Under the pieces are notes generated by a model. The model saw nothing but the letters and a program-made list of their open reading frames with translations. It was not told the DNA's origin and searched no databases. This document shows, piece by piece, positions 6,011 to 33,798 of a stretch of 64,000 nt of DNA. This stretch comes from an uncultured Verrucomicrobiota bacterium. GTDB lineage: Bacteria; Verrucomicrobiota; Verrucomicrobiia; Limisphaerales; UBA9464. A program made the translations under genes and the position numbers. The stretch is taken from positions 1 to 64,000 of the forward strand of contig CAJAHH010000065.1 of the NCBI GenBank assembly GCA_903939515.1. Direction: 5' to 3'. Every line of letters starts with the position of its first letter. Positions within the stretch are counted from its first letter, which is position 1.

Positions 6011-6050
6011 TTGTCACCGTGTTGTCACCGGAGCGTCACTGTTCAGTCGG
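6011..6050 (+). promoter_or_regulatory. PhoB-box-like 11-bp direct repeats
   Basis: Four heptamers are spaced exactly 11 bp apart: TTGTCAC (6011), TTGTCAC (6022), GCGTCAC (6033) and CAGTCGG (6044). The E. coli Pho box is a direct repeat of CTGTCAT at 11-bp spacing, so the layout and core match a PhoB-type site. It lies about 75-115 bp upstream of the ATG at 6125 and in the same orientation as that gene. A related two-repeat site is at 22169-22186. Binding by a Pho regulator is inference. Confidence 0.5.
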
Positions 6051-16009: not shown

Positions 16010-19000
16010 TCACTCCACCGAAATCCGGACGAATCCGGTGGCCACCCCGAAGGGCACCTCGACGGTTAGATCGGAACCAGTGCCAACAACCGGTGATTGC
16101 ACCGGGGTCCAAGCGGTCTGATCCAAGGCCGTGCGGCTTTGGAGGATGTAGGTACGGCCCGGTTCAGACATGAAGGTGATCTTCAGTCCTGTCGCGGTGG
16201 CAGCGACACCCAGGATCGGAGCCTTGGGTTGCGGCAGCGCCATCGGCCCGACCGGCTTAATGCTGGTGGCCTTGAAGAAGCCGTCGGCATCGAGTGCGGT
16301 CCAGTCTTGGGCCCAGTTCTCGGAACCGAAGGCTCCAGTGAAGTTCACCTTCACGAATCCAGGGGTCTCGGTCTGCGGCACACCATAAGCCGGGCTGCCG
16401 GCGCGCAACGTCGGATCCAACTGGCCATCGGCCTTGCGGCTAATGCCTCCGAGCAGCGGATCCACCGTCGGGTTCAAGGCGGCCGGCACGTACTCCTTGC
16501 CGTAGTCTTCGTTCGATCCCGTCTTGTAACCCCAGAACACGTTGTTCTTCAGCTCCGGCGTCGAAACACCGTCGTCGTCGATACGCACTCGCACGCCACC
16601 GAAGTCGGTGAACACCGAGTTGAACCAACGCGCCTTGTTCTCCTGACGGAAGCGCAACGCGTCGTTGCCGCTCGAATTGGTGCCCGCTCCGATCATCGTC
16701 GCGTTGCGCACCACATAATTAGCCAAGGGCAATGCTCCCGGAACGCGCACGTCCGGCGACTGAGGCTGGCCGTTTTGCTCCGCGCCGCTGTCCTTGGCCG
16801 TCGGCTCTTGGATCCCGAACCAGAACTGGTTCTGACCGTTGTAGCCCATGTCGGTGTCGAATCCGTCGTCGTCGCAGAACGCAGCCACCAAGTGCTTGGT
16901 GTTCACCGAACCACCGAAGAACTCGAACCCGTCGTCGGCAATGCAGTAGGCTTCCAGATAGTCAGCCACAGTGCCACGGCCTACGCCGCACAACGACCAC
17001 CCGTTGATCTCCTTGTCGGTGGTCAGCTTCTTACCACCATGCCGCACCGACACATAGCGGAACACGCCTGAGCTATCGTCGTCATCGGTGCCGCCATAGC
17101 GGTGCAAGTAGTCGATCTGGCCCGTGAAGTCGTTGGTCACGGCAAGGTCCGGAAGACCTTCGTAGATATCATAGGACACGTTGTTGGTCGTCCATCCCGG
17201 GTTGTTCAACCGGGCGTTACCGAAGAGAACGATGCCACCCCAGAGACCCCGTGTCGGGAAGGGCAAGTCGCCCGCGTCGCTCACGTCATCCACTTCGGCC
17301 GTGAAGATGATCGGGTTGCCCGCAGTCCCGGCGGCATTGATCTTACCTCCGCGGCAGACAAAGAGGCAGCCGAAGTCGTTGGCCGCACTGGAAGAAGAGC
17401 CTGTCCCTGACACACCCTTAATCACCGTGCCGGGCTCGATGTTCAGGACGGAGTTGCTCATCACGTAAGTGAAGCCCGTCAGAATGTAGGTGTTGGTCGC
17501 CACCCAATCGTAGGTGCCGTAGAGGTAGTTTGAATCGACGTAAACGACATTGTCGCGGGCCGGGAAGAAACCCTCGGCGCTGAGCCCCGTCCAGCCGTAG
17601 GCCCAGTTGTCATTGGCGTCGAATGCGCCCTTGTAATTAGCGGGGGTCCAGAAGCCGTCGGCCGGCGTGCTCATCGCGCCCGTGAAGGCTGGGCTGCCCG
17701 TCGACAACCTCGGATCCAACTTGCCGTCCGGCTTGCGACTAATCGACAGCAACTTCGGATCAGCCACCGGGTTCAGATCGGCCGGCACATACTCCTTGCC
17801 GTAGTCTTCGTTGGATCCAGCGAGGAATCCCCAGAACAAGTTATTCTTCACGTCGGGCGTCGAAACTCCGTCGTCGTCAATGCGAACGCGAACACCACCA
17901 AAGCCCGTCACGATGGAGTTGTACCACCGCGCTTTGTTCTCCTGGCGGAAGCGCAACGCATCGTTGGCTGTCGTGTTCGTTCCAGCTCCAATTAAGGTCG
18001 CATTGCGGATCGTGTAGTTCGACAGCGGCAGCGCTCCGGCCACACGCACGTCCGGGGACTGCGGCTGCCCGTTTTGCTCCGAACCGCTGTCCTTGGCTGT
18101 CGGCTCTTGGATCCCGAACCAGAACTGGTTCTGACCATTGTAGCCCATGTCAGTGTCGAACCCGTCGTCGTCATTGAAGGCCGACACCAAGTGCTTGGTG
18201 TTGACCGAGCCACCGAAGAACTCAAACCCGTCGTCAGCGATGCAGTAGGCTTCCAGATAGTCAGCCACCGTGCCTCGGCCCACACCACACAAGGACCATC
18301 CATTGATCTCCTTGTCGGTCGTCAGCTTCTTGCCGCCGTGCCGCACCGAGACGTAGCGCATCGAACCGGAACTATCGTCGTCATTGCTGCCACCATAGCG
18401 ATGCAAGTAATCGATCTGACCGCTCACCGCATTGGTCACCGCGAGGTCGGGCAGTCCTTCGTAGATGTCGTAGGAGACGTTGTTGGTCGTCCATCCCGGA
18501 TTGTTCAACCGGGCATTACCAAAGAGGACGATGCCACCCCACAAACCGCGGGTCGGGAAGGGCAAGTCGCCCGCATCGCTCACATCGTCGGCCACTGCCG
18601 TGAAGATGATGGGCCGATTCGGCGTGCCATTGGCGTTGAGCTTGCCACCGGAGCAAACAAACAAGCAGCCGAAGTCATTCGCCGCACTGGTCGAGGTTCC
18701 CGTGCCGGAGGCTCCCTTCACTACCGTGCCCGCCTCGATGTTCAAGACGGCGTTGCTCATCACGTACGTAAAACCCGTCAAAATGTACGTGTTGGTCGCG
18801 ACCCAGTTATGGGTTCCATACAAGTAACCTGCAGCCACGTTGATCACATTGCCCTCGACGGTACCAATGGTGATACGAACGGTGACCACCGCGGACTCTA
18901 GGGCTCCGTCGCTCACCTTGAAAGTGAACGTGTCATTCCCCTGGGCATTGAGCTTCGGAGTGTAGGTCAGGTTCGGGGCTGTACCGGAGAGAACACCGAG

Positions 19001-22000
19001 GGTCGGTTGTGAAACCACCGTATAAGTGATGGCGTCTCCGTCCGCATCGACGGCCTGCAAGTTGATGACCGTCGCAGTGCTCTCGCGCACCGACACATCC
19101 TGATTTGAAGCGATGGGCGCATCAGCCACCGGAGTGACGGTGACCGCAACCGTCGCGAGCTCAGAATCAAAGGACCCATCATTGACCTTAAAGGTAAATG
19201 AATCAGTGCCGTTGGCATTGGCGCGGGGGGTGTACACCAAATTAGGGGCCGTGCCACTGAGCGATCCGAGAGCAGGCGCCGTGACGATGGTGTAAGTCAG
19301 CGTATCCGACTGGGGATCAGTACCCGTGAGTGTGACTGCAACGGTGGCATCTTCGGCGGTCGAAACAGCCTGAGACTTGGCAACCGGAACCAGATCCAAG
19401 AGCGAAGGACCCACGGGCTTGATGCTGGTGGCCTTGAAGAAGCCAGCGGCATCCATGGCCGTCCAGTCTTGGGCCCAGTTCTCGGAACCGAAGGCGCCGG
19501 TGAAATTGACCGTCGTCAGGCCCGGGGTGTCCGTCTGCGGCACGCCATATGCGGGACTACCGGCTCGCAGCGTCGGATCCAACTGTCCGTCGGGCTTGCG
19601 GCTGATGCCCCCCAGCAACGGATCAACCACTTGGTTGCTGCTGGTCGGCGCGTACTCCTTGCCGTAGTCTTCGTTGGATCCGCTCTTAAATCCCCAGAAC
19701 ACGTTGTTCTTCACGTCCGGAGTCGACACCCCGTCGTCGTCGATCCGCACCCGGACTCCACCGAAATCGGTGATCACCGAGTTGTACCAACGCGCCTTGT
19801 TCTCCTGACGGAACCGCAACGCATCGTTGCCGCTCGAGTTGGTGCCCGCTCCGATCATCGTCGCGTTGCGCACCAAGTAATTGGCCAAGGGCAATGCTCC
19901 CGGAACACGCACGTCCGGCGACTGAGGCTGGCCGTTTTGCTCTGATCCGCTATCCTTGGCTCCTGGCTCCTGGATTCCGAACCAGAATTGGTTCAGACCG
20001 TTGTAGCCCTGATCGGTGTCGAACCCGTCGTCGTCGCAGAAGGCGGCCACCAAGTGCTTGGTGTTCACCGAACCACCGAAGAACTCGAACCCGTCGTCAG
20101 CGATGCAGTAGGCTTCCAAATAGTCAGCCACCGTGTTTCGACCCACGCCGCACAGCGACCATCCGTTGATCTCCTTGTCGGTCGTCAACTTCTTGCCGCC
20201 GTGGCGCACCGAGACATATCGGAAAATACCTGAACTGTCGTTGTCGTCAGTGCCACCATAGCGGTGCAAATAATCGATCTGACCAGTCAACGCGTTCGTG
20301 ACCGCCAAATCAGGCAAACCTTCGTAAATGTCGTAGGAGACATTGTTGGTCGTCCATCCCGGGTTGTTCAACCGGGCGTTACCGAAGAGAACGATGCCAC
20401 CCCAGAGACCCCGTGTCGGGAAGGGCAAGTCGCCCGCATCGCTCACGTCGTCGTTTTCGGCGGTGAAGATGATGGGGTTGTTCGGGGTGCCGTTGGCGTT
20501 GACTTTGCCGCCGCGGCAGACAAAGAGGCAGCCGAAGTCGTTGGCAGCACTAGTGGAAGAGCCGCTTCCCGAAAGACCCTTAACGACCGTTCCCGGCTCG
20601 ATGTTCAGAACCGCATTGCTCATGACGTAGGTGAAACCCGTCAGGATATAGACATTGGTCGCAGACCAATTGTAGGTGCCGTACAAGTGTGGGGTGCTGA
20701 CGTAAAACACGTTGTCGCGCGCCGGGAAGAAACCGTCGGCGCTGAGCCCCGTCCAGCCATAGGCCCAGTTGTCTTCTCCGTCGAAGGCACCCTTGTAATC
20801 CACAGGGGTCCAGAAGCCGTCGGTGGGCGTGCTCATAGCGCCTTCAAACACCGGGCTACCCGGGGTCGGCCTCGGATCCAGCTTACCGTCGGCAGCACGG
20901 CTGATCGAACGAAGCTTCGGATCGGCCACCGGGTTCAGAGCAGCCGGGACATACTCCTTGCCGTAGTCTTCGTTGGATCCGCTCTTGAATCCCCAGAACA
21001 CGTTGTTCTTCACGTCCGGCGTCGAAACTCCGTCGTCGTCGATCCGCACCCGGACTCCACCGAAATCGGTGATCACTGAGTTGTACCAGCGCGCCTTGTT
21101 CTCCTGGCGGAAGCGCAAAGCATCGTTGGCTGTCGTGTTCGTTCCAGCTCCAATTAAGGTCGCATTGCGGATCGTGTAGTTCGACAGCGGCAACGCTCCG
21201 GCCACACGCACGTCCGGAGACTGAGGCTGGCCATTCTGCTCCGAGCCACTGTCCTTGGCTGTCGGCTCTTGGATGCCGAACCAGAACTGATTCTGACCGT
21301 TGTAACCCATGTCGGTGTCAAACCCGTCGTCGTCGCAGAAAGCGGCCACCAAGTGCTTGGTGTTCACTGAACCACCGAAGAACTCGAACCCGTCGTCGGC
21401 AATGCAGTAGGCTTCCAGATAGTCAGCCACAGTGCCACGGCCTACGCCGCACAACGACCACCCGTTGATCTCCTTGTCGGTCGTCAGCTTCTTGCCGCCG
21501 TGCCGCACCGAGACGTAGCGCATCGAACCAGAACTATCGTTGTCATTGCTGCCACCATAGCGGTGCAAGTAGTCGATCTGGCCGCTCACAGCATTGGTCA
21601 CCGCGAGGTCGGGCAGTCCTTCATAGATGTCGTACGACACGTTGTTGGTGGTCCAGCCTGGGTTGTTCAGGCGGGCATTGCCGAAGAGAACGATGCCACC
21701 CCACAAACCACGCGTCGGGAAAGGCAGATCACCGGAATCGCTCACATCGTCGGCCACCGCCGTAAAGATGATGGGCCGATTCGGCGTGCCGTTGGCGTTG
21801 AGCTTGCCACCGGAGCAGACAAACAAGCAGCCGAAGTCATTCGCCGCACTGGTCGAGGTTCCCGTGCCGGAGGCTCCCTTAACCACCGTGCCCGCCTCGA
21901 TGTTCAAGACGGCGTTGCTCATCACGTACGTGAAGCCGGTCAATATGTACGTGTTGGTTGCCACCCAGTTGTGGCTGCCATACAGGTATCCTGTGATGCG

Positions 22001-22090
22001 GTTGGTTTCGCCTCGGACCTGAGTGCCGATCAGCGCGGAAGTCAGGGTGATCCAAAGGATCAGCCATGCTGGGATTCGACGAGTTTTCAT
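16010..22090 (-). CDS. 2026-residue exported protein, A-B-Ig-Ig-A'-B' repeats
   Basis: The protein has a signal peptide (MKTRRIPAWLILWITLTSAL to QVRG). Four modules of about 430 residues follow, each opening YLYGxxxWxATNxYILTGF. They contain VLNIEAGTVVKG, IIFTAxxDDVSD, GLWGGIVLFGNARLNNPGW, RYGGxxDxDSSG and EAYCIADDGFEFFGGSVNTK, typical of parallel beta-helix surface proteins. Two cadherin/Ig-like domains (about 880-1085) separate modules 2 and 3. The acidic DDDGFDTD and RIDDDGVSTP loops suggest calcium binding. The last 70 residues carry the shared C-terminal domain (YILQSRTALDQTAWTPV to FVRISVE). It is probably a cell-surface or secreted adhesin-like protein; no catalytic site is recognised. 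Upstream lie a PhoB-like site and a shared promoter-like element. Confidence 0.85.
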   Translation of the reverse strand: MKTRRIPAWLILWITLTSALIGTQVRGETNRITGYLYGSHNWVATNTYILTGFTYVMSNAVLNIEAGTVVKGASGTGTSTSAANDFGCLFVCSGGKLNANGTPNRPIIFTAVADDVSDSGDLPFPTRGLWGGIVLFGNARLNNPGWTTNNVSYDIYEGLPDLAVTNAVSGQIDYLHRYGGSNDNDSSGSMRYVSVRHGGKKLTTDKEINGWSLCGVGRGTVADYLEAYCIADDGFEFFGGSVNTKHLVAAFCDDDGFDTDMGYNGQNQFWFGIQEPTAKDSGSEQNGQPQSPDVRVAGALPLSNYTIRNATLIGAGTNTTANDALRFRQENKARWYNSVITDFGGVRVRIDDDGVSTPDVKNNVFWGFKSGSNEDYGKEYVPAALNPVADPKLRSISRAADGKLDPRPTPGSPVFEGAMSTPTDGFWTPVDYKGAFDGEDNWAYGWTGLSADGFFPARDNVFYVSTPHLYGTYNWSATNVYILTGFTYVMSNAVLNIEPGTVVKGLSGSGSSTSAANDFGCLFVCRGGKVNANGTPNNPIIFTAENDDVSDAGDLPFPTRGLWGGIVLFGNARLNNPGWTTNNVSYDIYEGLPDLAVTNALTGQIDYLHRYGGTDDNDSSGIFRYVSVRHGGKKLTTDKEINGWSLCGVGRNTVADYLEAYCIADDGFEFFGGSVNTKHLVAAFCDDDGFDTDQGYNGLNQFWFGIQEPGAKDSGSEQNGQPQSPDVRVPGALPLANYLVRNATMIGAGTNSSGNDALRFRQENKARWYNSVITDFGGVRVRIDDDGVSTPDVKNNVFWGFKSGSNEDYGKEYAPTSSNQVVDPLLGGISRKPDGQLDPTLRAGSPAYGVPQTDTPGLTTVNFTGAFGSENWAQDWTAMDAAGFFKATSIKPVGPSLLDLVPVAKSQAVSTAEDATVAVTLTGTDPQSDTLTYTIVTAPALGSLSGTAPNLVYTPRANANGTDSFTFKVNDGSFDSELATVAVTVTPVADAPIASNQDVSVRESTATVINLQAVDADGDAITYTVVSQPTLGVLSGTAPNLTYTPKLNAQGNDTFTFKVSDGALESAVVTVRITIGTVEGNVINVAAGYLYGTHNWVATNTYILTGFTYVMSNAVLNIEAGTVVKGASGTGTSTSAANDFGCLFVCSGGKLNANGTPNRPIIFTAVADDVSDAGDLPFPTRGLWGGIVLFGNARLNNPGWTTNNVSYDIYEGLPDLAVTNAVSGQIDYLHRYGGSNDDDSSGSMRYVSVRHGGKKLTTDKEINGWSLCGVGRGTVADYLEAYCIADDGFEFFGGSVNTKHLVSAFNDDDGFDTDMGYNGQNQFWFGIQEPTAKDSGSEQNGQPQSPDVRVAGALPLSNYTIRNATLIGAGTNTTANDALRFRQENKARWYNSIVTGFGGVRVRIDDDGVSTPDVKNNLFWGFLAGSNEDYGKEYVPADLNPVADPKLLSISRKPDGKLDPRLSTGSPAFTGAMSTPADGFWTPANYKGAFDANDNWAYGWTGLSAEGFFPARDNVVYVDSNYLYGTYDWVATNTYILTGFTYVMSNSVLNIEPGTVIKGVSGTGSSSSAANDFGCLFVCRGGKINAAGTAGNPIIFTAEVDDVSDAGDLPFPTRGLWGGIVLFGNARLNNPGWTTNNVSYDIYEGLPDLAVTNDFTGQIDYLHRYGGTDDDDSSGVFRYVSVRHGGKKLTTDKEINGWSLCGVGRGTVADYLEAYCIADDGFEFFGGSVNTKHLVAAFCDDDGFDTDMGYNGQNQFWFGIQEPTAKDSGAEQNGQPQSPDVRVPGALPLANYVVRNATMIGAGTNSSGNDALRFRQENKARWFNSVFTDFGGVRVRIDDDGVSTPELKNNVFWGYKTGSNEDYGKEYVPAALNPTVDPLLGGISRKADGQLDPTLRAGSPAYGVPQTETPGFVKVNFTGAFGSENWAQDWTALDADGFFKATSIKPVGPMALPQPKAPILGVAATATGLKITFMSEPGRTYILQSRTALDQTAWTPVQSPVVGTGSDLTVEVPFGVATGFVRISVE
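16245..21995 (-). repeat. four long coding repeats, order A B (Ig Ig) A' B'
   Basis: Approximate minus-strand extents are A 21995-20695, B 20695-19390, Ig-like spacer 19390-18840, A' 18840-17530 and B' 17530-16245. Modules 1 and 3 share NGTPNRPIIFTAVADDVSD. Modules 2 and 4 share the ending DxAGFFKATSIKPVGP. A therefore resembles A' and B resembles B' more than A resembles B, implying that an A-B pair was duplicated as a block. DNA identity is very high in places, so recombination or assembly collapse is possible. Confidence 0.8.
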
Positions 22091-22168: not shown

Positions 22169-22186
22169 GTGACAACTGTATGACGC
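22169..22186 (-). promoter_or_regulatory. PhoB-box-like direct repeat
   Basis: On the minus strand, GCGTCAT and TTGTCAC begin exactly 11 bp apart, as in one PhoB-dimer site. It is 79-96 bp upstream of the ATG at 22090, close to the distance of the similar array upstream of 6125. It lies in the shared divergent region with the PlcP-like gene, so it could serve either side. Confidence 0.45.
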
Positions 22187-22421: not shown

Positions 22422-23375
22422 ATGAAGTACAACGCCATCTGGATTTCGGACCTTCACCTCGGGAGCAAGCATAGCCAGGCGGATCTTCTACTGTCGTTCC
22501 TGCACAACCACGAATGCCGCCACCTGTATCTGGTGGGTGACATCATCGATGGCTGGGAGCTCCGACGGCGATGGCTTTGGAGCAGCGATGCCAATACGGT
22601 CATCCAGAAAATCCTGCGGATGAACCGCAAACAGACCCAAGTCACCTACGTTTTTGGGAACCATGATGAATTCATGGAGCAATTTCTGGGTTTAAACTTG
22701 GGTGGAGTGCGCCTGGTGGAACGTGCCATTCACGAAGGTTTGGACGGGCGTCGTTATCTCGTGCTTCACGGCCACCAACTCGATGGACTAGTCCTCTTTA
22801 ACCGACTACTCGAGCGCGTGGGAGCCCGTCTTTACGACTGGATTCTCGAATTTAATCTGCACTTCAACCGACTCCGACGTCGGATGGGCTTCGGATATTG
22901 GTCGGTGGCCGCTTACTTGAAATTCCAAGCCAAGGGCGCCGTCCGCTACGTCACCCAATATGAAGAGGCCATGGTGCGATTAGCGCGTCAGGCGGGTGTC
23001 GAGGGCGTCATTTGCGGCCACATCCACCGGGCCGAAATCCGGACGGTCCAGGGCTTCGAATACCTCAACTGCGGCGACTGGGTGGAGAGTTGCACCGCTC
23101 TGGCCGAGGATTTTGAAGGCAACATCCATTTGCTGAGGCTCGACGACTCAAAAAACACCCCCCTAAACAACCCTGCGGTGGGCGAAGATGCTAACGCTGA
23201 CCGGACACGGATGCGGAGGTCCGAACTCTCAGCCCGCCGATCGGCCCCCATAGACCCGGTACGAGAGACCGGCTCACTCTCGGAGGATTTGCCCCTGTTC
23301 CGGAACACTGGACCTGGTACTCGTGAACGGATGACCCCGGCCGCGGAACTGCGAAGCGTCCGACGCCGGACCTGA
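22422..23375 (+). CDS. plcP: PlcP/LpxH-type metallophosphoesterase
   Basis: A calcineurin-like metallophosphoesterase of 317 residues. Metal ligands appear in ISDLHLGSKHS, YLVGDIIDGWELRRRW, FGNHDEF, VLHGHQLD and CGHIHRAEI. The segments LVGDIIDGWELRRRW, LGGVRLVERAIHE, NRLRRRMGFGYWSVAAYLK and YLNCGDWVESCTA match PlcP-type enzymes more closely than LpxH. In rhizobia and marine bacteria PlcP releases diacylglycerol from phospholipids under phosphate limitation. The BtaA-like gene nearby would use that diacylglycerol. The last 60 residues (from about 255) are low-complexity and overlap the end of the convergent methyltransferase gene by 102 bp. LpxH-like activity cannot be excluded from sequence alone. 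Confidence 0.8.
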   Translation: MKYNAIWISDLHLGSKHSQADLLLSFLHNHECRHLYLVGDIIDGWELRRRWLWSSDANTVIQKILRMNRKQTQVTYVFGNHDEFMEQFLGLNLGGVRLVERAIHEGLDGRRYLVLHGHQLDGLVLFNRLLERVGARLYDWILEFNLHFNRLRRRMGFGYWSVAAYLKFQAKGAVRYVTQYEEAMVRLARQAGVEGVICGHIHRAEIRTVQGFEYLNCGDWVESCTALAEDFEGNIHLLRLDDSKNTPLNNPAVGEDANADRTRMRRSELSARRSAPIDPVRETGSLSEDLPLFRNTGPGTRERMTPAAELRSVRRRT

Positions 23376-24182: not shown

Positions 24183-25379
24183 ATGAGAACCTTGGCCACC
24201 TGGACGACGGAAACCCTCTTCAACTATGTCCACGGGAACTATCTGGTCTACAACACCTGTTGGGAGGATCCGCGGCTCGATCGGGAAGTCCTTGGTCTGG
24301 GTGGGGAGGATGAATTGGTCCTCATCACGTCGGCGGGCTGCAATGCTCTGGACTACGCGCTCGACGGACCCCGGCGGATTCATGCCGTAGACATGAACTT
24401 CCGGCAAAATGCCCTGTTGGAGCTCAAGCTGGCCGGTATCCGAAATCTCGAACACGACGAGTTTTTTGCGATCTTCGGTGACGGCGGAACCCCCGCCTTT
24501 CGGGCCTGGTACCAGCAACGTTTACGGCGGGACCTTCCTTTGTCCGCTCGAGAGTACTGGGATGATCGAACCCACTTTTTTGCGCGACGCAAACCTTCAG
24601 ACTCATTCTATCATCGGGGCACCACCGGGGTTTTTGCCAAGTCCATGATGCGCTACTTCCGGATGGCCGGAGTCTTGGATGACTTGCGAAGCCTATTTTC
24701 GGCCGGATCTCTGGAGGAACAACGCGCCATTTATTTCGGGCGCGTCCGTGAGAAGTTCTGGCGACCGTCCATACGCCGCGCCCTGCGCTCCGATTTCGCG
24801 CTGAGTCTTTTGGGAGTTCCTGCGGCTCAGAGGGATCACTTGGAGCGGACCTGCGGGCAAGACATCGCAGCCTTCATGGAGGACTGTGTGGAGACGGTCT
24901 GCACACGACTACCAGTGGCCGACAACTACTTCTGGCGCCTCTACCTTTTTGGGCGCTACACCCGGGACTGCTGCCCGGAGTACTTGCGCGAGCCGAACTT
25001 CCAACGACTGAAGGACGGCCTGGCCGACCGGATCGAGACCCACACCAACAGCCTGACTGGCTTTCTGCGCCAACATACCCGCCCCCTGTCTCGATTCGTG
25101 CTCCTCGATCACATGGACTGGCTGAGCCACCGGCATCCCGAGGCGCTGGCCGAGGAATGGCAGGCTATTGTGGATCGGGCCAGTGCGGGTGCACGGATTT
25201 TGTGGCGATCCGGGGGTGTTTCCGTTGATTTCGTGGATCCGGTGCGTGTCCGCTACCAAGGAAGCCCGACCCGCGTGGGTGAATTGATCCGGTACGATCG
25301 GGCACTGGCCACCGATTGCCACCGCCGGGATCGCGTCCACACCTATGGCAGCTTCCACATTGCACACCTCACCGCCTGA
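24183..25379 (+). CDS. btaA: BtaA-like (DUF3419) 3-amino-3-carboxypropyl transferase
   Basis: The 398-residue protein opens FNYVHGNYLVYNTCWEDPRL, then LVLITSAGCNALDYALDGP, RIHAVDMNFRQNALLELKLA and EFFAIFGDG. These are the hallmarks of DUF3419. The founding member, BtaA of Rhodobacter, transfers the 3-amino-3-carboxypropyl group of SAM to diacylglycerol, the first step of the phosphorus-free betaine lipid DGTS. Later segments VADNYFWRLYLFGRYT and LLDHMDWL fit the family. It overlaps the next gene by 35 bp, so the two are probably co-transcribed. The exact lipid product in this organism is inference. Confidence 0.8.
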   Translation: MRTLATWTTETLFNYVHGNYLVYNTCWEDPRLDREVLGLGGEDELVLITSAGCNALDYALDGPRRIHAVDMNFRQNALLELKLAGIRNLEHDEFFAIFGDGGTPAFRAWYQQRLRRDLPLSAREYWDDRTHFFARRKPSDSFYHRGTTGVFAKSMMRYFRMAGVLDDLRSLFSAGSLEEQRAIYFGRVREKFWRPSIRRALRSDFALSLLGVPAAQRDHLERTCGQDIAAFMEDCVETVCTRLPVADNYFWRLYLFGRYTRDCCPEYLREPNFQRLKDGLADRIETHTNSLTGFLRQHTRPLSRFVLLDHMDWLSHRHPEALAEEWQAIVDRASAGARILWRSGGVSVDFVDPVRVRYQGSPTRVGELIRYDRALATDCHRRDRVHTYGSFHIAHLTA

Positions 25380-26517
25380 GCCCTCGGCGCAGGTTCTTTG
25401 GTCTACCGAAGCCGTCCGAGCCATCGGAGGCGGTGACTTCGGGGCACCCGCCTACTGGCGGCGAGTTGTGGGTGAAACATTCCGCCCGGCGATGAACCTA
25501 AATGGTCGCGCGGGTTGGGTGTCCCATGGCGCGTTCGGTTGCCCCATCACGGTGCACGATCGCCGACGCACCGACTCTTATCCGGTGTCGCTGATGACCC
25601 AATATCTCGACTATCCGCGGGCCGAATTAAACCACTTTTCCAGCGGTCCCCTGCGACTGGCTGTACGACTCGGTCTGGTGGCCTTCGAGGCAATCCTGCG
25701 CGGTGCCATCGCCGATCGTACCGTTCAATGGAACAGTTGGATGTTCTCGACCAACCCCGTTCCTGAGGGGCTTTTGGGATCGGTAGGGGCCATCACCCGC
25801 TCGTTGGTGCGGGAGTTTCCTGAGCATGCGGTGGTTCTAAGGAATGTCGACGAGGTCGGCGCCCCGGGACTGGCCGATCAGCTTGTCCAACAGGGTTACC
25901 GCCTGCTAACCAGTCGGATCGTCCATTGTTTTGACGCCCGTCAAAGGCCCTTAAGAGGCACGTCGACGCTGCGCCGGGACGGAAAAGAATTCGCCGGCGA
26001 CACCCGCTACCGATGGGTCCACCCCTCGGAGATCTTAGACTCCGATGCAGCCCGTATTGCTGAGCTCTACCGAATGCTCTACCTGGACAAGCATTCCCGA
26101 CTGAATCCGCACTATGACGAGGGCTTTGTCCGTGCGGCCATCCGCGGTCGCTGGCTGGAGTTTCACGGCCTTCGTGATCGCTTGGGTCGATTGGTGGGTA
26201 TTTGGGGATACTTCACCATCGACACCACTATCACGACAGTTCCCTTCATCGGCTACGACACCACGTTGCCACCAGAATTGGGCCTCTATCGACAGCTCTT
26301 TCTCGGCATCCACCGCGAGGTGAATGATCGGAAGCAACTGCTCAACTACAGCTCCGGGGCGGGCGAATTTAAACGCCGCCGAGGTGCTGTGCCCGCAGTG
26401 GAATACAACGCCGTCTTCGATCGCCATCTGCCCGAACGGCGACGCATGGCCTTCCGCATCGCTGGCCTGCTCTTGAATCGCCTGGCCCGGCCGTGGCTTG
26501 AGGCCAGCGGTCTGTAG
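25345..26517 (+). CDS. GNAT/FemAB-like acyltransferase, uncharacterised
   Basis: The 390-residue protein overlaps btaA by 35 bp. The C-terminal half looks like a GNAT or BioF2-type fold: YRMLYLDKHSRLNPHYDEGF, WGYFTIDTTITTVPFIGYD, LNYSSGAGEFKRRRGAVP and VEYNAVFDRHLPERRRM. The N-terminal half (FGAPAYWRRVVGETFRPAMN) resembles proteins encoded beside DUF3419 genes, but no function is known to me. There is no signal peptide. The tight overlap suggests it modifies the same lipid or its precursor, by inference only. Confidence 0.6.
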   Translation: MAASTLHTSPPEPSAQVLWSTEAVRAIGGGDFGAPAYWRRVVGETFRPAMNLNGRAGWVSHGAFGCPITVHDRRRTDSYPVSLMTQYLDYPRAELNHFSSGPLRLAVRLGLVAFEAILRGAIADRTVQWNSWMFSTNPVPEGLLGSVGAITRSLVREFPEHAVVLRNVDEVGAPGLADQLVQQGYRLLTSRIVHCFDARQRPLRGTSTLRRDGKEFAGDTRYRWVHPSEILDSDAARIAELYRMLYLDKHSRLNPHYDEGFVRAAIRGRWLEFHGLRDRLGRLVGIWGYFTIDTTITTVPFIGYDTTLPPELGLYRQLFLGIHREVNDRKQLLNYSSGAGEFKRRRGAVPAVEYNAVFDRHLPERRRMAFRIAGLLLNRLARPWLEASGL

Positions 26518-26570: not shown

Positions 26571-27275
26571 ATGAACGTGGCCAAGGACAAGATCGACAAG
26601 CGCCGCGGCGCCTCGATCGACAAGCAGGCCCACGCCATGGACACCGAGCGCTGGATCCTAGACACCTTGGAGTTTGACCGTGCCGTCGCGACCGCCCGGG
26701 CATTTTTGGCCACCGACCCCGACACGTTGATCGTCGTTTGCGCCGACCATGAATGCGCCGGCGTCAACATCATTGGCGCCTCCCGCGTCACCAACGCCAA
26801 GCTGACCGAACTGTCCCAAGGCATTGGCAACACCAACAACGCGATTCGCGAGGCTGTTGTGGGGGTGTATGAGAACGCCGGTTTCCCGGTCTACACGATG
26901 GCGGATGACGGCTATCCGACCACCACCGATCCGGACAACAAGATGCTCATCGGCTACGCCGGCAACGCCGACCGCTACGAAAACTGGCTGACCAATCCGC
27001 TGCCGCTGCAAGACAGCCAGCAGCCCTTCGGCAAGGTCGCCCCCTTGAACACCTACCCGGCGGGCCCTATTAACCGGGACACCAACGGAATGTTTCTCGT
27101 CACCGGTCAGGTGCCCAGCGCTGGAGCCGGTAGCTCAGCGGTTCACACCGCCTCGGATATTCCGGTCTATGCCGAAGGACGTGGCGCGAGCCTGTTCCGT
27201 GGAACGATCGACAACACCGATGTGTTTTTCAGTGTCATGCAGGCCGTCTTGGGCGGCGTGCCGGTGACCAAGTGA
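26571..27275 (+). pseudogene. alkaline phosphatase (PhoA-type), C-terminal remnant
   Basis: The 234-residue open frame matches only the C-terminal half of PhoA-like enzymes. ASIDKQAHAMDTERWILDTL supplies two metal ligands, LIVVCADHECAGVN supplies the Asp-His pair, and SAVHTASDIPVYAEG supplies the last metal His. The nucleophilic serine and the first metal Asp should lie some 200 residues upstream. Those sequences are absent; the region before 26608 (KDKIDKRRG) does not match the family. The frame itself is intact and its ATG may be fortuitous. It is probably a deletion remnant rather than an active enzyme. A PEP-CTERM gene follows after 31 bp. Confidence 0.8.
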
Positions 27276-28042: not shown

Positions 28043-28152
28043 GAGGAATATCCGGCACCAGACCGCGCTCGATCTCGGCGCAAAATGTCACCGTTCTGTT
28101 TCCTGCGCGTCATGCTCGTGTGACGCGTCGGCCCAAAGATCGGCCCATTACG

Positions 28153-28995
28153 ATGGGTCTAGATTCCTCTCTCTTGCTCAACGAAGGGCGCCTCAACCGA
28201 GGCGAGGAATGGGACTTTCCGGGTTCAGGCTGGACCTTCCTGTGGCTCATATCCGGAGACGCGTACCTGATGGGCGATACACCGAGCCAGGCGCTGTCGA
28301 CCGGGATGGTCGCGATCCATGGCGGAAACTGTTTGCTGAGGCTGCGGGCCAGCCAACTGGGCAGCCTCGCGTTTCGTTGGTTTCGCCTAGATCCGACCAC
28401 ACTCTTCGGGGTCTTCACTCTGTTGGAGCGTCGCCGGATCGACCATCCGGATCAAATCAACCCCTCCCTGCCCTGGGTTCTCAACCGAGACAATCCTGCC
28501 GCCGAGCGCTTCAGCAAAACCCACATCTCCCACGACACCGGGTCGCTGGAGCAGCGGGCGCGGTTGTTGGAGTTGGTGTCCACGGTCCTGTCTCCTCCTG
28601 CCTACAAGTCCTCCATACCGGTGGGTTCACCACGGGATGCCGGGGATCGACTGGAGGAACTGCTTCACCAACTCACCGACGCGCAATTAATGTCCATGCC
28701 CGTCGAAGAATTAGCCCGCCGTTGCCACTGCGAGACCCGGCGTCTGCTGTTAATTTACCGAGAGCGCTTCGGCGGTAGCCTGCCGGGACAACAACGAGAA
28801 TGGCTCAAAGTGAAGGCCTGTTCGATGCTGGCCCAAGCCGACTCAGACATCGCCTCGGTGGCCAAGGCCTGCGGCTACGACGGTGCAGACGCCTTTCGGG
28901 CGTGGTTCCGGAGGCAGTTCGGAATGGCACCCACTCAGTGGCAACAGCAGCAGGCATCTCAACGTTCCAGCACCGGTTCCACGACGATCGGGTAA
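28153..28995 (+). CDS. AraC-family transcriptional regulator
   Basis: The 280-residue protein has an N-terminal cupin-like sensor region (EEWDFPGSGWTFLWLISGDA, MVAIHGGNCLLRLRAS). A C-terminal double helix-turn-helix follows: MPVEELARRCHCETRRLLLI, then DSDIASVAKACGYDGADAFRAWFRRQFGMAPTQW, the typical second-helix signature of AraC proteins. ATG 28153 is preferred; a GTG at 28120 would add 11 residues. It lies just upstream of, and co-directional with, the lipoprotein-ExbBD-receptor operon, so it is a candidate regulator of that operon. The effector is unknown. Confidence 0.85.
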   Translation: MGLDSSLLLNEGRLNRGEEWDFPGSGWTFLWLISGDAYLMGDTPSQALSTGMVAIHGGNCLLRLRASQLGSLAFRWFRLDPTTLFGVFTLLERRRIDHPDQINPSLPWVLNRDNPAAERFSKTHISHDTGSLEQRARLLELVSTVLSPPAYKSSIPVGSPRDAGDRLEELLHQLTDAQLMSMPVEELARRCHCETRRLLLIYRERFGGSLPGQQREWLKVKACSMLAQADSDIASVAKACGYDGADAFRAWFRRQFGMAPTQWQQQQASQRSSTGSTTIG

Positions 28996-29455: not shown

Positions 29456-30244
29456 ATGGACCCGTTCCAACCCATCCTCGCCAACGCCCTCACCTTCGCT
29501 TTCGAGAAGGCCACGATCGAGGGTAAGATGACCATCTCGGCCCTGATCCTGGTATCGATGGTCTCCTGGTCGGTGATCATCACCAAAGGCCGTCAAATCT
29601 TGAAGGCCCGCGCCATGAGCAGGAAGTTCCTGGCCGCCTATCGGGAGTCCAAGGATCCGATGGCTCTCTTCCGCGACAAGCGAGAGTTTTCGGGAGCCCC
29701 GGCCTTCGAGGTCTACGCCTCCGGTTGCGGTGAAGTGGAGTACCACTTGGAGAACAATCCGGTGACCGTGAAAGGCAAGAAGCGCATTAGTGTCGAGTCT
29801 TTCCAGTCGGTTCAAGTGGCCTTAGAGCGGTCGGTCAGCGCCGAGGCGTTGTCGCTAGAAAAGGGCATGATCATCCTGACCACGGCCGTTTCGGGCGGCC
29901 CTTTCATTGGTCTTCTAGGCACGGTCTGGGGTGTCATGGAAACTTTCTCCGGCATCGCCATGGCGGCCAGCGCGAGCCTCACAGCGATGGCCCCAGGTGT
30001 CGCCGGTGCACTCATCGCCACGGTCGTTGGTCTCTTCGTGGCTATCCCTGCGATGTTCGCCTACAACCTGATGATCACCGCCATCCGCGGCATCACGCAG
30101 GAGCTCGATAACTTCAACTCCGAGGTGATGACCGACCTGGAGCACCAGTACGTCGACAACCGCGCTCTGGCGGACGAAATCGCCGACGCGCTGCGGAACA
30201 TTAACTTCGGTCAGCCGGCTCAAAACCCGACCCATCGCCCATGA
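29456..30244 (+). CDS. exbB: ExbB/TolQ-type proton channel subunit
   Basis: The 262-residue inner-membrane protein forms the ExbB scaffold that, with ExbD, converts proton motive force into movement of a TonB anchor. Three hydrophobic helices are visible: about 25-44 (TISALILVSMVSWSVIITKG), 150-170 and 180-205. The conserved block runs GGPFIGLLGTVWGVMETFSG and then APGVAGALIATVVGLFVAIP. It overlaps exbD by 4 bp (ATGA). Placement with exbD and a TonB-anchored receptor favours a dedicated ExbBD pair over TolQR. Confidence 0.93.
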   Translation: MDPFQPILANALTFAFEKATIEGKMTISALILVSMVSWSVIITKGRQILKARAMSRKFLAAYRESKDPMALFRDKREFSGAPAFEVYASGCGEVEYHLENNPVTVKGKKRISVESFQSVQVALERSVSAEALSLEKGMIILTTAVSGGPFIGLLGTVWGVMETFSGIAMAASASLTAMAPGVAGALIATVVGLFVAIPAMFAYNLMITAIRGITQELDNFNSEVMTDLEHQYVDNRALADEIADALRNINFGQPAQNPTHRP

Positions 30245-30693
30245 GCGCAGCCGCCACCGGGCGTCGTGGACGCAAAAAATATTCCGCATCGCATCACCAT
30301 GCGATGGGTGAACTTAACATCACCCCGTTGCTGGATTTGGCCTTCGTGCTCCTGGTGATCTTCATCATCACCACAGCCCCCTCAACCAACGACATCGACA
30401 TCAACCTGCCCTCGGCCGCACAGCAGCCGCCGCAGAACCAAACCAAACAGGACATTAACAATGTCACGGTTGATGCCGCAGGGAACATCTACTTTAACGC
30501 CGAGCCCATCACCCTCAAGAAGCTTGAGGATGAGATCATCCGCTTCCGCAAGAGCAACCCAGACTTGAGCGTCGTGGTGCGTGGCGACGAGAACGTGAAC
30601 TACCAGAAGGTGGTTCAAGTTCTCGACATCCTAACACGGGCCAATGTGACCAAGATCGGCCTCGCGACGGACACCGCGGGCGCAGCGAAATAA
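30241..30693 (+). CDS. exbD: ExbD/TolR-type proton channel subunit
   Basis: The 150-residue protein has a single N-terminal helix, ITPLLDLAFVLLVIFIITTA. The essential membrane Asp lies in LLDLAFVLLVIF. A periplasmic domain follows (IDINLPSA, VTVDAAGNIYFN, VVVRGDENVNYQKVVQVLDIL), the standard ExbD/TolR fold. It overlaps exbB by 4 bp and is followed after 9 bp by the TonB-receptor fusion gene, so all three are surely co-transcribed. Confidence 0.93.
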   Translation: MSAAATGRRGRKKYSASHHHAMGELNITPLLDLAFVLLVIFIITTAPSTNDIDINLPSAAQQPPQNQTKQDINNVTVDAAGNIYFNAEPITLKKLEDEIIRFRKSNPDLSVVVRGDENVNYQKVVQVLDILTRANVTKIGLATDTAGAAK

Positions 30694-30702
30694 AGAACCG
30701 TC

Positions 30703-33700
30703 ATGGCCCGCAACGCCAAAAAGAAGACGGACCGCTCGAGTCTGATCATCTCGATGATCGTCCACGCCCTAGCCCTGGGTGGTCTGGCCTATTTGGCCCA
30801 CCGAGCTGGGTTCGTGCCGCAGGCGATTTATCAAATCACCGGCATCCGTCCGCCGGAGAAACCCAAGCCGAAGCCCAAGCCTCCGGAACCCTCACCGGAG
30901 ATCCCCAAACCCAAAGCGAGCGACATCGTCGAGGAGACGGCCACCCCACCGACGGCGACCGCTCCGGCCACGGCCGCACCGCCGACCGCGACGGCCGCCC
31001 GTTCCGATGCGCCCCCCGCCCAAGGCGGCGGCGCGGGCAATTTCTTCAAGGCCGAAGTCCGCAAACCCGACGCGGCACCGGTCCGCCCCATCCAGGGCAA
31101 ACCCGGCACGGGTGCCGGCACTCTGGGCGCTTCTAAGTCCACCGCTTCGGCCACCGCGGCCAAGTCGGCCTTTGATGAGGCGACCACCAAGCCCAGTACC
31201 GTGGCGGCCGTGTTGGAAGAGCGAAAGAACGCAGCCACGTCACAAGAAGCCATCAGCGCCGAGCAAATCGCGCGGACCGGTGGCGGCGATGCCTCACAAA
31301 TCACCACGAAAATTACGGGCGTGGTGGCGACAGACAACCGCCAGATCGTCATCCGCGGTCTGAATGACCGGTACAACATCGCCACCCTCAATGGTGCAGA
31401 GCTTCCGAGTGCGGACCCCCGACGCCGGGCCCCGCAACTCGACCTAATCCCCGCAGCCATGATCGACCGGGTGGTGGTCAGCAAGACCTTCACTCCCGAT
31501 CTTCAGGGCGGATTTGCCGGCGGCGCAGTGAACATCGTCACCAAATCCTTTCCAGCCAAGGGCTTCACCACGGTCTCCGCCGGAACCGGGCTCAACAGCT
31601 CAGCCACGATGAACGAGGGCTTCTCGAAGATTCCGGGTGGCGCCAATGATTTCTGGGCGATGGATGATGGTTCCAGAGCGCTGCCCTCAAAGGCCCTTAT
31701 CGATCCGTCGATCATCACCGATGCTCAGCGTCCGTGGCGCAACACCACCCAGCAAGCAGCGGGTGCCGAGCGACTGGCCTTGGCCCAGAAGTACGACGCG
31801 GCCTTGCGTTCTTTCAACAACACCACCTTCGCCCCGTCGATGGGCCAACCGGGGCCGAACTCCAATTTCGCGGTCTCGAGCGGCGACACCACGTGGCTCT
31901 TCGGCCGACGCTTTGGCTGGTTCGGAACCTTCAATCACGATCGCCAGTTCCAGTTTTACGAGAACGCCTTCCGTGGTCGCTACGCCTACGGCACTGATCC
32001 GATCAACGGCGGACCTCTGACCCGCACGGCCGAGTTTCGACGCAATCAGTCCATCATGAATGTGGGTTGGGGTGCCGTGGCCAGCACCGCCATGGAGTTG
32101 ATGCCCGGACATGAAGTGTCCTTCAGCTTCCTCAACAACCAGAGCGCTCAGCACTACATCACCGAAGAAACGGGACAGACGATCAATCAGTTCCAACCGG
32201 GAAGCGATGAGCGGACCCGTATCGAGCAGTTGACCTACCGCGAGCGCTACTTGCGCAACTTCCAGTTCAAGGGTCGCCATGAATTCCGCGAAGTGGGATC
32301 CACCCAGCTGGACTGGAGCTTCTCGAGTTCGGGTACCGGCGAGAACTCCCCCGACGAGCGCATCTTCCCAATGATCCTGTTCCCGGCGGGCAACGGGCTC
32401 ACCAACGTGATCGCCCAATCGGCCGAGCTACCGAACATCAACCAGCCTTCGCGCTTCTTCCGCGACTCGCAGGACAAGAGCTGGAACTTCCGCAGCGACC
32501 TCACGATCCCCTTTACGCCCGGAAATGGCCTCGAGAGTTCTATCAAAGTCGGCGGCAACATCCTCGAATCCGAACGCCGATTGCGTGAACAACGCTTCGA
32601 GTACGAAATCAGCCAGACCACCGGTGCCAATCAGTCCGATGTGGTCGGCTACGCCAACTCGGTCCTCAACTTCCAGGGCCAGCAATTCACCACCAACGCC
32701 ACCGGATCGGGAGCCAATGCCCGAACCGCCTATTACTTTCCCAACGCGACCTTCCTGCGCTCCGGATTGCCCTTCGACGGCTACGGCTACGATGGAACGC
32801 AGTCCATTCCCGCCGTGTACGCCATGGCTGATTTATTTGTGCTACCGAAGTTCCGCCTCGTGGGCGGTGCCCGGTTCGAACAAACCGACCTCAAGGCCGA
32901 AGTGCTTCCTCGAAGCCGGATTCTAGGATCTTCCTCCAGCGGCAACATCGCCACAACGGATGTGCTTCCCTCCATCGGTGGGGTATTCCCGATCACCTCC
33001 AACTTCAATTTGCGGCTCAACTGGTCGCAGACGATCGCTCGCCCCACCTATCGCGAGTTCGCCCCCTTCGAGTACTTTGACACCTTCGACGGCTTGGCCT
33101 ACCGCGGTAATGCCGACCTCAAGCGTTCAGAAATTGAGAACTACGATGCGCGGGTAGAGTGGTTTCCCCGCCCCGGCGAACTCCTCTCGGCGGCCTACTT
33201 CCGGAAAAACATTCTCAACCCGGTTGAGCCGTACATCGCCGACAACGCCGCAGGCATCGTAAGTTTCACCAACAATGCCAGCGCCATCGTTTCGGGTTTC
33301 GAGTTTGAAGCGCGCAAGAACTTGGCCGCCCTCGACCCTCTTTTGGCGGGCATTACTCTCGGCGGCAACGCGGCCTTAATCAGTTCCGAGGTCGATGTAT
33401 TTTATCCAGTGGGCAATGGCGTTGGCCTCTACAATCGCCCGTTGTTCGACCAACCCAAGTACATCCTCAACTCCGACCTCGCCTGGGAAATCGCCCGGAG
33501 CCGCACCACCTTCTCGGTGTCCTTCACCCGCAGCGGCCAACGACTGGCGGTCGATGGCGGCCAAGGCAGCCCGAACATTTACGAGCAACCCATCAACACG
33601 CTCGATTTCTTCGTCAACCAGCGTCTCGGACGGCGTTGGAAAATGCGCTTTGGCGCGCGCAACCTGCTGGATCCGGAGATCCGCCAGACCCTCATCAACG

Positions 33701-33798
33701 ACCTCGGTACCCGCGAAGAGCGCTACGGCGACCAGTACGTCTTCCGCAGCTACAAGCGCGGCATCACGGTCAGCCTGACCTTGTCGGCCGATTTTTAA
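30703..33798 (+). CDS. TonB-anchor / TonB-dependent receptor fusion
   Basis: The 1031-residue single frame starts like TonB. A basic cytoplasmic tip (MARNAKKKTDRSS) is followed by a helix at residues 14-33 containing S17 and H21, the SxxxH motif by which TonB engages ExbB/ExbD. A Pro/Lys-rich run (EKPKPKPKPPEPSPEIPKPK, 52-71) and a Pro/Ala/Thr linker continue to about 175. It then becomes a TonB-dependent receptor. The plug spans about 179-285 (IVIRGLNDRYNIATLNGAEL, DLIPAAMIDRVVVSKTFTPD, GGAVNIVTKSFP). A beta-barrel follows to the end, SLTLSADF, with the terminal Phe expected of BAM substrates. No TonB C-terminal domain or TonB box was recognised. It appears to cross both membranes unless processed. 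The ligand is unknown. Confidence 0.85.
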   Translation: MARNAKKKTDRSSLIISMIVHALALGGLAYLAHRAGFVPQAIYQITGIRPPEKPKPKPKPPEPSPEIPKPKASDIVEETATPPTATAPATAAPPTATAARSDAPPAQGGGAGNFFKAEVRKPDAAPVRPIQGKPGTGAGTLGASKSTASATAAKSAFDEATTKPSTVAAVLEERKNAATSQEAISAEQIARTGGGDASQITTKITGVVATDNRQIVIRGLNDRYNIATLNGAELPSADPRRRAPQLDLIPAAMIDRVVVSKTFTPDLQGGFAGGAVNIVTKSFPAKGFTTVSAGTGLNSSATMNEGFSKIPGGANDFWAMDDGSRALPSKALIDPSIITDAQRPWRNTTQQAAGAERLALAQKYDAALRSFNNTTFAPSMGQPGPNSNFAVSSGDTTWLFGRRFGWFGTFNHDRQFQFYENAFRGRYAYGTDPINGGPLTRTAEFRRNQSIMNVGWGAVASTAMELMPGHEVSFSFLNNQSAQHYITEETGQTINQFQPGSDERTRIEQLTYRERYLRNFQFKGRHEFREVGSTQLDWSFSSSGTGENSPDERIFPMILFPAGNGLTNVIAQSAELPNINQPSRFFRDSQDKSWNFRSDLTIPFTPGNGLESSIKVGGNILESERRLREQRFEYEISQTTGANQSDVVGYANSVLNFQGQQFTTNATGSGANARTAYYFPNATFLRSGLPFDGYGYDGTQSIPAVYAMADLFVLPKFRLVGGARFEQTDLKAEVLPRSRILGSSSSGNIATTDVLPSIGGVFPITSNFNLRLNWSQTIARPTYREFAPFEYFDTFDGLAYRGNADLKRSEIENYDARVEWFPRPGELLSAAYFRKNILNPVEPYIADNAAGIVSFTNNASAIVSGFEFEARKNLAALDPLLAGITLGGNAALISSEVDVFYPVGNGVGLYNRPLFDQPKYILNSDLAWEIARSRTTFSVSFTRSGQRLAVDGGQGSPNIYEQPINTLDFFVNQRLGRRWKMRFGARNLLDPEIRQTLINDLGTREERYGDQYVFRSYKRGITVSLTLSADF

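Follow-up and report, generated by a model that had tools for sequence, protein, structure and literature searches.

How did a single bacterial gene come to encode four large copies of the same module, what keeps these copies alike, and what might such a protein do for the cell? The question is raised by a 2026-codon open reading frame (ORF) in a 64,000-nucleotide stretch of DNA (the window) from an uncultured Verrucomicrobiota bacterium of the Limisphaerales (contig CAJAHH010000065.1, positions 1 to 64,000). The ORF is real, with an ATG start, and is intact on the minus strand from 22090 down to 16010. The reading that we favour, and consider reasonably probable, is that it encodes a large secreted four-module protein resembling ElpS of Caulobacter crescentus, which partners a TonB-dependent transporter in phosphorus scavenging and whose modules have been homogenised by intragenic gene conversion.

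The four modules (M1 to M4; Table 1) are 428-433 residues each and form two A-B units around two Ig-like domains, with a repeat spacing along the gene of 1299, 1863 and 1299 nt. A preliminary description, made from the sequence alone, had proposed an A-B-Ig-Ig-A'-B' scheme, and both the module order and the closest pairs (M1/M3 and M2/M4) bear this out. Two stretches of the linker match Big_9 (PF17963; 104.6 bits against a cut-off of 23.6), and the linker scores 82.9 with the NCBIfam tandem-95 model NF012211, under its cut-off of 90; among solved structures, searched by sequence, the one hit was a weak one to a protocadherin, in the Ig part (E 0.18). No Pfam or NCBIfam model matches the module itself at or above cut-off. 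The cysteine motifs pointed out earlier, EAYCIADDGFEFFGG and LFVC, are present in all four modules. The N-terminus resembles a Sec-type signal peptide, and a lipobox cysteine was not found, there being zero cysteines among the N-terminal 60 residues.

M1 and M3 share 93.1% amino acid (87.6% nucleotide) identity and M2 and M4 share 90.0% (84.9%), against 80-82% (77-79%) for the remaining four pairs, so that alternate modules are indeed nearer to each other than neighbours are and the distances among the four are not equal. There are 412 polymorphic sites among the four copies, and sites dividing the nucleotides two against two support 13|24 at 109 positions, 14|23 at 12 and 12|34 at 7. Synonymous divergence (dS, NG86 method) is 0.56 for M1/M3 and 0.66 for M2/M4 versus 0.87-1.05 in the other pairs; nonsynonymous divergence (dN) is 0.04-0.15, and dN/dS between modules is about 0.08-0.15. 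The module DNA had been called near-identical, a description that does not survive: it is 77-88% identical, and four-fold silent sites are 50-67% identical between whole modules. Such an array invites the suspicion that its four-copy order is an artefact of assembly, the more so as the genome is in 160 contigs and many relatives' contigs end within modules. The longest exact stretch common to two modules is 113 nt, however, and short reads could therefore resolve the copies; together with the number of polymorphic sites, the intact ORF and a relative (G007, below) that has the two-Ig linker with modules on either side, this makes an artefact unlikely, to the point that we give it almost no weight.

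Superimposed on the pairing is a patchwork of conversion. M1 and M4 are identical at 17 of 18 silent sites in codons 169-206, versus 75 of 157 elsewhere, and M1 and M2 at 8 of 9 in codons 304-319, versus 79 of 159 elsewhere. Shuffling the polymorphic sites 5000 times never gave a run of this length for either pair, and the other four pairs gave shuffle P values between 0.0006 and 0.03. Silent identity is unexplained by selection on the protein, and the tracts are therefore attributed to conversion or crossover. Trees of 18 modules from eight proteins were also built separately for the body and the tail of the module, cut at residue 350 where the A and B types diverge (a position chosen after the alignment had been seen). 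The window protein's modules fall together in the body tree (94/97), modules likewise group by protein in G008, G024, G027, G071 and G068y, and those of G067 and G068x group by position; an A-type clade is rejected (log-likelihood (lnL) difference 313, approximately unbiased (AU) test p 2.7e-5). The tail tree is compatible with an A-type clade (lnL difference 0.44, p 0.43) but not with one made up of the window protein's own four modules, which is rejected (lnL difference 29.3, AU test p 2.6e-5); in the same tail test the G008 pair is non-significant (p 0.07) and the G071 pair significant (p 0.014). From this clash of body and tail trees we conclude that A and B are old positions with homogenised bodies. 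The gene conversion suggested at the outset is thus supported by silent-site tracts and trees alike, and we regard both it and the duplication as well founded. The modules of G016 share 97-100% identity over codons 210-330, against 67-94% in other windows of the alignment, and this homogenisation is a more recent event.

The ends carry a signature of position. Of the 16 verrucomicrobial multi-module ORFs that could be followed to their end, 14 close their last module with the motif WA.DW (the exceptions are at loci L073 and L081), and it occurs in one of the 19 internal modules of those 14 ORFs, namely M2, just before the Ig linker; as the sole internal module with the motif, M2 is marked out as capping a first unit that is complete in itself. 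This rule was set after viewing the alignments, and the count omits C-terminally cut ORFs, hand-listed duplicate or truncated loci, L015 (in which a stop breaks the frame) and non-verrucomicrobial ORFs; it includes L047, which is titled Klebsiella but stands among Verrucomicrobiota in the tree. With bodies that follow species and ends that follow position, the protein shows clearly how copies within a single bacterial gene can evolve in concert. Searches for literature joining gene conversion, tandem, beta-helix and Verrucomicrobia, and for literature on PTHR41339, found none.

The age of the block duplication can be judged from relatives. Module matches are present in 18 of the 19 genomes of the genus set and in 33 of the 50 of the family set (genus included), many of them cut by contig ends. 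In G007 (locus L155) a single contig runs from a module that ends in the B-type manner, through a two-Ig linker of equal length, into the beginning of another module. Over most of codons 240-360 the B-type half of this G007 module matches M2 at 91-98% identity (75-77% in two end windows), and as it is closer to M2 than M4 is (85% overall) the block duplication looks older than the species split. The first module of G007 is an A/B hybrid, with a start nearer to M1 and M3, an end like that of M2 and a switch between about codons 180 and 240; either a module was lost by recombination or the contig was joined there in assembly. A module tree gives partial backing to the older age, M4 grouping with C-terminal modules of G005 and G018 (100/98), but the same clade includes an N-terminal module of G017 and two viral-contig modules; single-module trees are therefore not clean evidence on the age of the duplication. 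We also note two single-module 718-aa relatives in IMG/VR (L108 and L109), 76-78% identical to M1 and on contigs classed as viral; two of their neighbour genes were scanned, with no Pfam matches.

A recent block duplication, which the preliminary description had drawn from the supposed near-identity, is rejected on the dS of 0.56-0.66 between the duplicated units and on the comparison with G007, which shares the Ig-linked form. Its further hint of phase or length variation fares differently in its two parts. Slippage finds no substrate, since simple sequence repeats and homopolymers of at least 7 are absent and a single 2.4-copy 7-nt repeat is present (inverted repeats and invertible elements were not searched); a change in length by recombination is possible, as the hybrid module of G007 would suggest if it is no assembly join. 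The related idea of an adhesin or antigen whose repeat number or sequence varies to change the surface would suit a large, repeated, secreted protein with Ig domains, and could draw on the hybrid module of G007 and the homogenisation in G016. The dN/dS values, the lack of slippage tracts and the phosphate and TonB genes in the neighbourhood all speak against it, and we think it very improbable.

The neighbourhood is what points to a likely role in phosphorus scavenging with a TonB receptor. Divergent from the module gene are a PlcP-like metallophosphoesterase gene and a BtaA-like gene of family PF11899, followed by part of an alkaline phosphatase gene and by genes for an AraC-type regulator, ExbB, ExbD and a TonB-dependent receptor (TBDR). 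G010 and G016 retain the order PlcP-BtaA-AraC-ExbB-ExbD-TBDR, as does G007 up to ExbD, at which point its stretch stops; G008, a member of the genus too, has AraC-ExbB-ExbD-TBDR immediately upstream of its module gene. Of the 24 loci examined, 13 contain one or more of PlcP, BtaA, ExbB, ExbD and TBDR, some genomes being present twice. A module-adjacent TBDR from another family in the order, used as query, finds one match in the window genome, the window TBDR (37%, 1.6e-143), out of six Plug matches there. plcP with btaA is a described phosphate-limitation cassette, and the window genes resemble its type-1 plcP-btaA-btaB arrangement (PMC4796936); the difference is that the cassette is a neighbour of the module gene and not part of the protein, and btaB was not identified.

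The association extends well beyond the genus. A scan of one genome per species gave at least 331 relatives, of which the best 80 were kept, corresponding to 79 loci that are best-scoring and no random sample. By record titles these belong to Verrucomicrobiota, Bacteroidota, Balneolaceae, Gemmatimonadales, Zixibacteria, Calditrichaeota, Neomarinimicrobiota and others; most non-verrucomicrobial loci have one module and many Verrucomicrobiota two to four. Neighbours were named by crude gene calls, ORF clustering, a Pfam scan of one representative per cluster and then cluster profiles, and include TBDR, an OmpR/PhoB-type regulator, a Porin_O_P-like protein (a weak match, 20.0 bits versus a cut-off of 20.9), a PHO4 transporter, a PstS-type binding protein, ExbB and ExbD, with a TonB gene seen in L161. 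A TBDR gene is present in 39 of the 79 loci (within 1 kb in 36), the PhoB-type regulator in 23, the porin-like gene in 17, PHO4 in 15 and the PstS type in eight. Where 3.5 kb or more is available on each side of the module gene (36 loci), the TBDR is present at 23 loci and the porin-like gene at 10 of the remaining 13. One contig titled Lokiarchaeota (L080), probably a binning error, has a module beside a TBDR and a regulator.

Searches of plasmids and phages returned 21 and three homologue records respectively, all of less than 60% identity. In four of the five plasmid records examined (of 21) a TBDR gene adjoins the module gene: those of Hymenobacter and Parabacteroides, that of Sphingomonas, with the order module-TBDR-type II secretion system (T2SS), and Alteromonas macleodii plasmid pBGP9 (L165), with the order PhoB-PhoR-PstS-like-oxygenase-module protein-TBDR-DUF3450-ExbB-ExbB-ExbD-TonB. 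The pBGP9 module protein is annotated as a 1356-aa hypothetical protein and has three modules.

These arrangements recall several published systems, which were compared by gene order and description. ElpS (CC_0170) of C. crescentus is a phosphate-starvation-induced surface lipoprotein encoded beside TBDR (CC_0171) and T2SS genes, the same order as in the Sphingomonas homologue; its overproduction raises extracellular phosphatase activity, and the family is reported in Shewanella and Bacteroides (PMC2996285). The Flavobacterium johnsoniae proteins FI, FII and FIII (Fjoh_3856, Fjoh_0546 and Fjoh_4889) are low-phosphate lipoproteins 31-36% identical to ElpS, and FII is listed in a PhoBR operon with OprP, PhoR, PhoB and a TonB-dependent transporter and assigned IPR011050 (PMC8115612); a similar neighbourhood surrounds many Bacteroidota module homologues. 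FI-FIII differ in being lipoproteins, and a multi-module or Ig-linked form goes unmentioned in the accessible text (PMC8115612). The feature of a TBDR encoded beside the gene, common to ElpS and FI-FIII, is seen in G008 and in the 36 loci with a TBDR within 1 kb. We conclude that the window protein is ElpS-like by neighbourhood and, likely, in the way it works, and is not itself an ElpS lipoprotein. What is new is the multi-module, Ig-linked and concertedly evolving form; ElpS and FII are known as phosphate-starvation lipoproteins of uncharacterised biochemistry.

A TBDR partner could also belong to a system for metal or cofactor uptake, in which the protein-TBDR pair would serve iron or manganese and the phosphate genes would be neighbours only in some lineages. 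The suggestion comes from Leptospira LipL48, a presumed homologue of the module. LipL48 is a lipoprotein in an operon with a TBDR, its mutant grows less with paraquat, and its authors suggest metal uptake; unlike the systems above it is described in the PerR regulon (PMC7567364). Invariant acidic residues in the module (below) could bind metal. Phosphate genes nevertheless recur in Bacteroidota, in Alteromonas and in the window genome, and elpS is reported to be unresponsive to iron depletion (PMC2996285), which leaves a metal role improbable.

The structure prediction proposed in the preliminary description was obtained for M1. The AlphaFold2 model, from 62 aligned modules, is a right-handed beta-helix with a predicted local distance difference test score (pLDDT) of 92.5 and a predicted TM-score of 0.93; IPR011050 is the pectin-lyase fold, and the model has a fold of this beta-helix or pectin-lyase type, a feature of the ElpS and FI-FIII family. 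A two-module model was poorer (pLDDT 77.7, 15 rows) and carries no claims. The nearest solved folds in VIA-align are AlgE epimerases, pectate lyase Pel9A and polygalacturonases (Z about 21; AlgE4 21.4 over 265 and Pel9A 20.8 over 295 residues). Nine acidic residues (E123, E173, D198, D199, E202, D220, D224, D226 and E250) are invariant in all 62 rows, and it would be a guess to call them a metal, ligand or catalytic site. Both results suit a scheme in which the modules are extracellular enzymes of polysaccharide lyase, hydrolase or epimerase type that cleave glycans, either phosphorylated or wall-bound, the products then being imported by the TonB system, and a polygalacturonase-like role has been proposed for FI and FII (PMC8115612). 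However, a beta-helix in common shows no activity and no catalytic residues were mapped; AlgE4 and Pel9A are 14-15% identical to M1 with catalytic residues unmatched, the ten top VIA-align chains are 10-15% identical to the module, and Foldseek finds no PDB match at E<=0.001. ElpS preparations were moreover without phosphatase activity (PMC2996285), and an enzymatic role seems rather unlikely to us. Foldseek against viral models gave two matches, one a right-handed beta-helix protein and one a tail fibre protein.

Upstream of the module gene is a 7-4-7 direct repeat (Table 1). A Pho box consists of at least two 7-bp direct repeats at 11-bp spacing, near the consensus CTGTCAT, and the window repeat has three mismatches to the E. 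coli form. A TTTACGGGAAAAACATCCAAGCGTCAT-N4-TTGTCAC block precedes the ATG in 12 of 17 aligned genus upstream regions, with the repeat starting at 89-96 nt; both half-sites are identical in ten of the 12 and changed in L014 and L039, L117 has a looser form, and the 4-nt spacer and flanks vary. Other sites matching the pattern lie near varied genes (for a HEAT/GSDH protein, a CotH protein, methionine synthase and an integrase), and we therefore use only the genus footprint. The repeat looks like a candidate Pho box, with the lack of enrichment and of pst sites (below) arguing against a firm call. Elsewhere in the window, three 7-bp direct repeats at 11-bp spacing (TTGTCAC, TTGTCAC and GCGTCAC; 6011-6039) end 88 nt ahead of the probable start codon, an ATG at 6127, of a gene for an LTD/Ig-domain protein. 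Weaker 7-4-7 repeats at 28107 and 29012 on the plus strand, near the AraC gene and before ExbB, score the same as one at 61831 that is probably a chance match.

Several observations weigh against the role that we favour. The window TBDR is 8.6 kb away on the opposite strand, with the PlcP-BtaA cassette between, and tblastn finds no homologue of it or of the window ExbB near the module genes in G067, G068 (which has two), G024, G027 and G047 (loci L144-L146, L148, L150 and L160). Three of the 36 fully flanked loci, all Verrucomicrobiota (L032, L033 and L044), have neither TBDR nor porin-like gene, and a Marinobacter plasmid homologue lacks neighbours of this kind. Neither the window (4 versus 7.3 expected) nor the genome (9 matches versus 12 for the reversed control) is enriched in the Pho-box-like pattern, and no such site precedes the genome's own pst-type permease and PhoU genes; its PstS-type gene is without pst neighbours. 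ElpS as described is a lipobox lipoprotein (PMC2996285), whereas the window protein combines four modules with two Ig domains and is without a lipobox, and the likeness to ElpS is one of gene order and description.

With these points taken into account, we propose the following course of events and mode of action. The two-module A-B form is older than the genus, and in the lineage of the window the entire A-B unit was duplicated later, around the Ig-Ig linker; the beta-helix bodies have been homogenised by recombination between modules, the C-terminal ends (internal A and capping B) staying distinct. We infer that the product, four ElpS-like right-handed beta-helix modules in two two-module units joined by two Ig domains, is secreted, is most likely made under phosphate limitation, and would work at the surface with the nearby-encoded TBDR, ExbB and ExbD, capturing phosphorus-containing material or presenting it for uptake. 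More tentatively, tandem ElpS-type beta-helices may act as multivalent arrays that capture phosphorylated polymers and pass them to a dedicated TonB receptor, with conversion selected to keep the ligand face alike and position-fixing end caps escaping it; we hold this possible rather than probable. In either form the proposal uses gene neighbourhood to link a module without a Pfam or NCBIfam match above cut-off with TonB transport and the scavenging of phosphorus in several phyla, Verrucomicrobiota included, and its function is testable, as ElpS and FI-FIII occur in bacteria with genetic tools.

Table 1. Coordinates of the module gene, its parts and its neighbours in the window.
Feature	Coordinates	Strand	Basis
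Multi-module ElpS-like secreted protein (putative), 2026 aa	16010..22090	-	ORF read from sequence
Sec-type signal-peptide-like N-terminus, MKTRRIPAWLILWITLTSALIGTQVRG	22010..22090	-	By sequence reading, no signal-peptide program; genus orthologues similar
Module M1, A type, predicted right-handed beta-helix, residues 35-467	20690..21988	-	Self-comparison and M1 model
Module M2, B type, C-terminal cap signature NWAQDW, residues 468-895	19406..20689	-	
Linker with two Ig-like domains (Big_9, residues about 905-1080)	18827..19405	-	
Module M3, A type, partner of M1, residues 1089-1521	17528..18826	-	
Module M4, B type, partner of M2, residues 1522-1949	16244..17527	-	
C-terminal tail, 77 aa	16010..16243	-	Weak similarity to another ORF of the same genome (C72); tail of the G016 relative alike by eye
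7-4-7 direct repeat GCGTCAT-ACAG-TTGTCAC, starting 96 nt before the ATG	22169..22186	-	
Metallophosphoesterase (PF12850/PF00149), PlcP-like, divergent from module gene	22422..23375	+	Pfam, synteny
DUF3419 (PF11899), BtaA-like betaine-lipid gene	24183..25379	+	Pfam, synteny
Alkaline phosphatase, C-terminal part (PF00245; best stretch profile positions 264-332)	26571..27275	+	
AraC-type regulator	28120..28995	+	
ExbB	29456..30244	+	
ExbD	30241..30693	+	
TBDR, of the type found beside the module elsewhere	30703..33798	+	

Two further features of the neighbouring genes are of note. The window copy of the alkaline phosphatase gene looks shortened, as G007 has about 2 kb more before it, after the preceding gene. 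The gene at 25345-26517 overlaps the BtaA-like gene at its end and is kept alongside it in genus members; Pfam gives no match for its 390-aa product.

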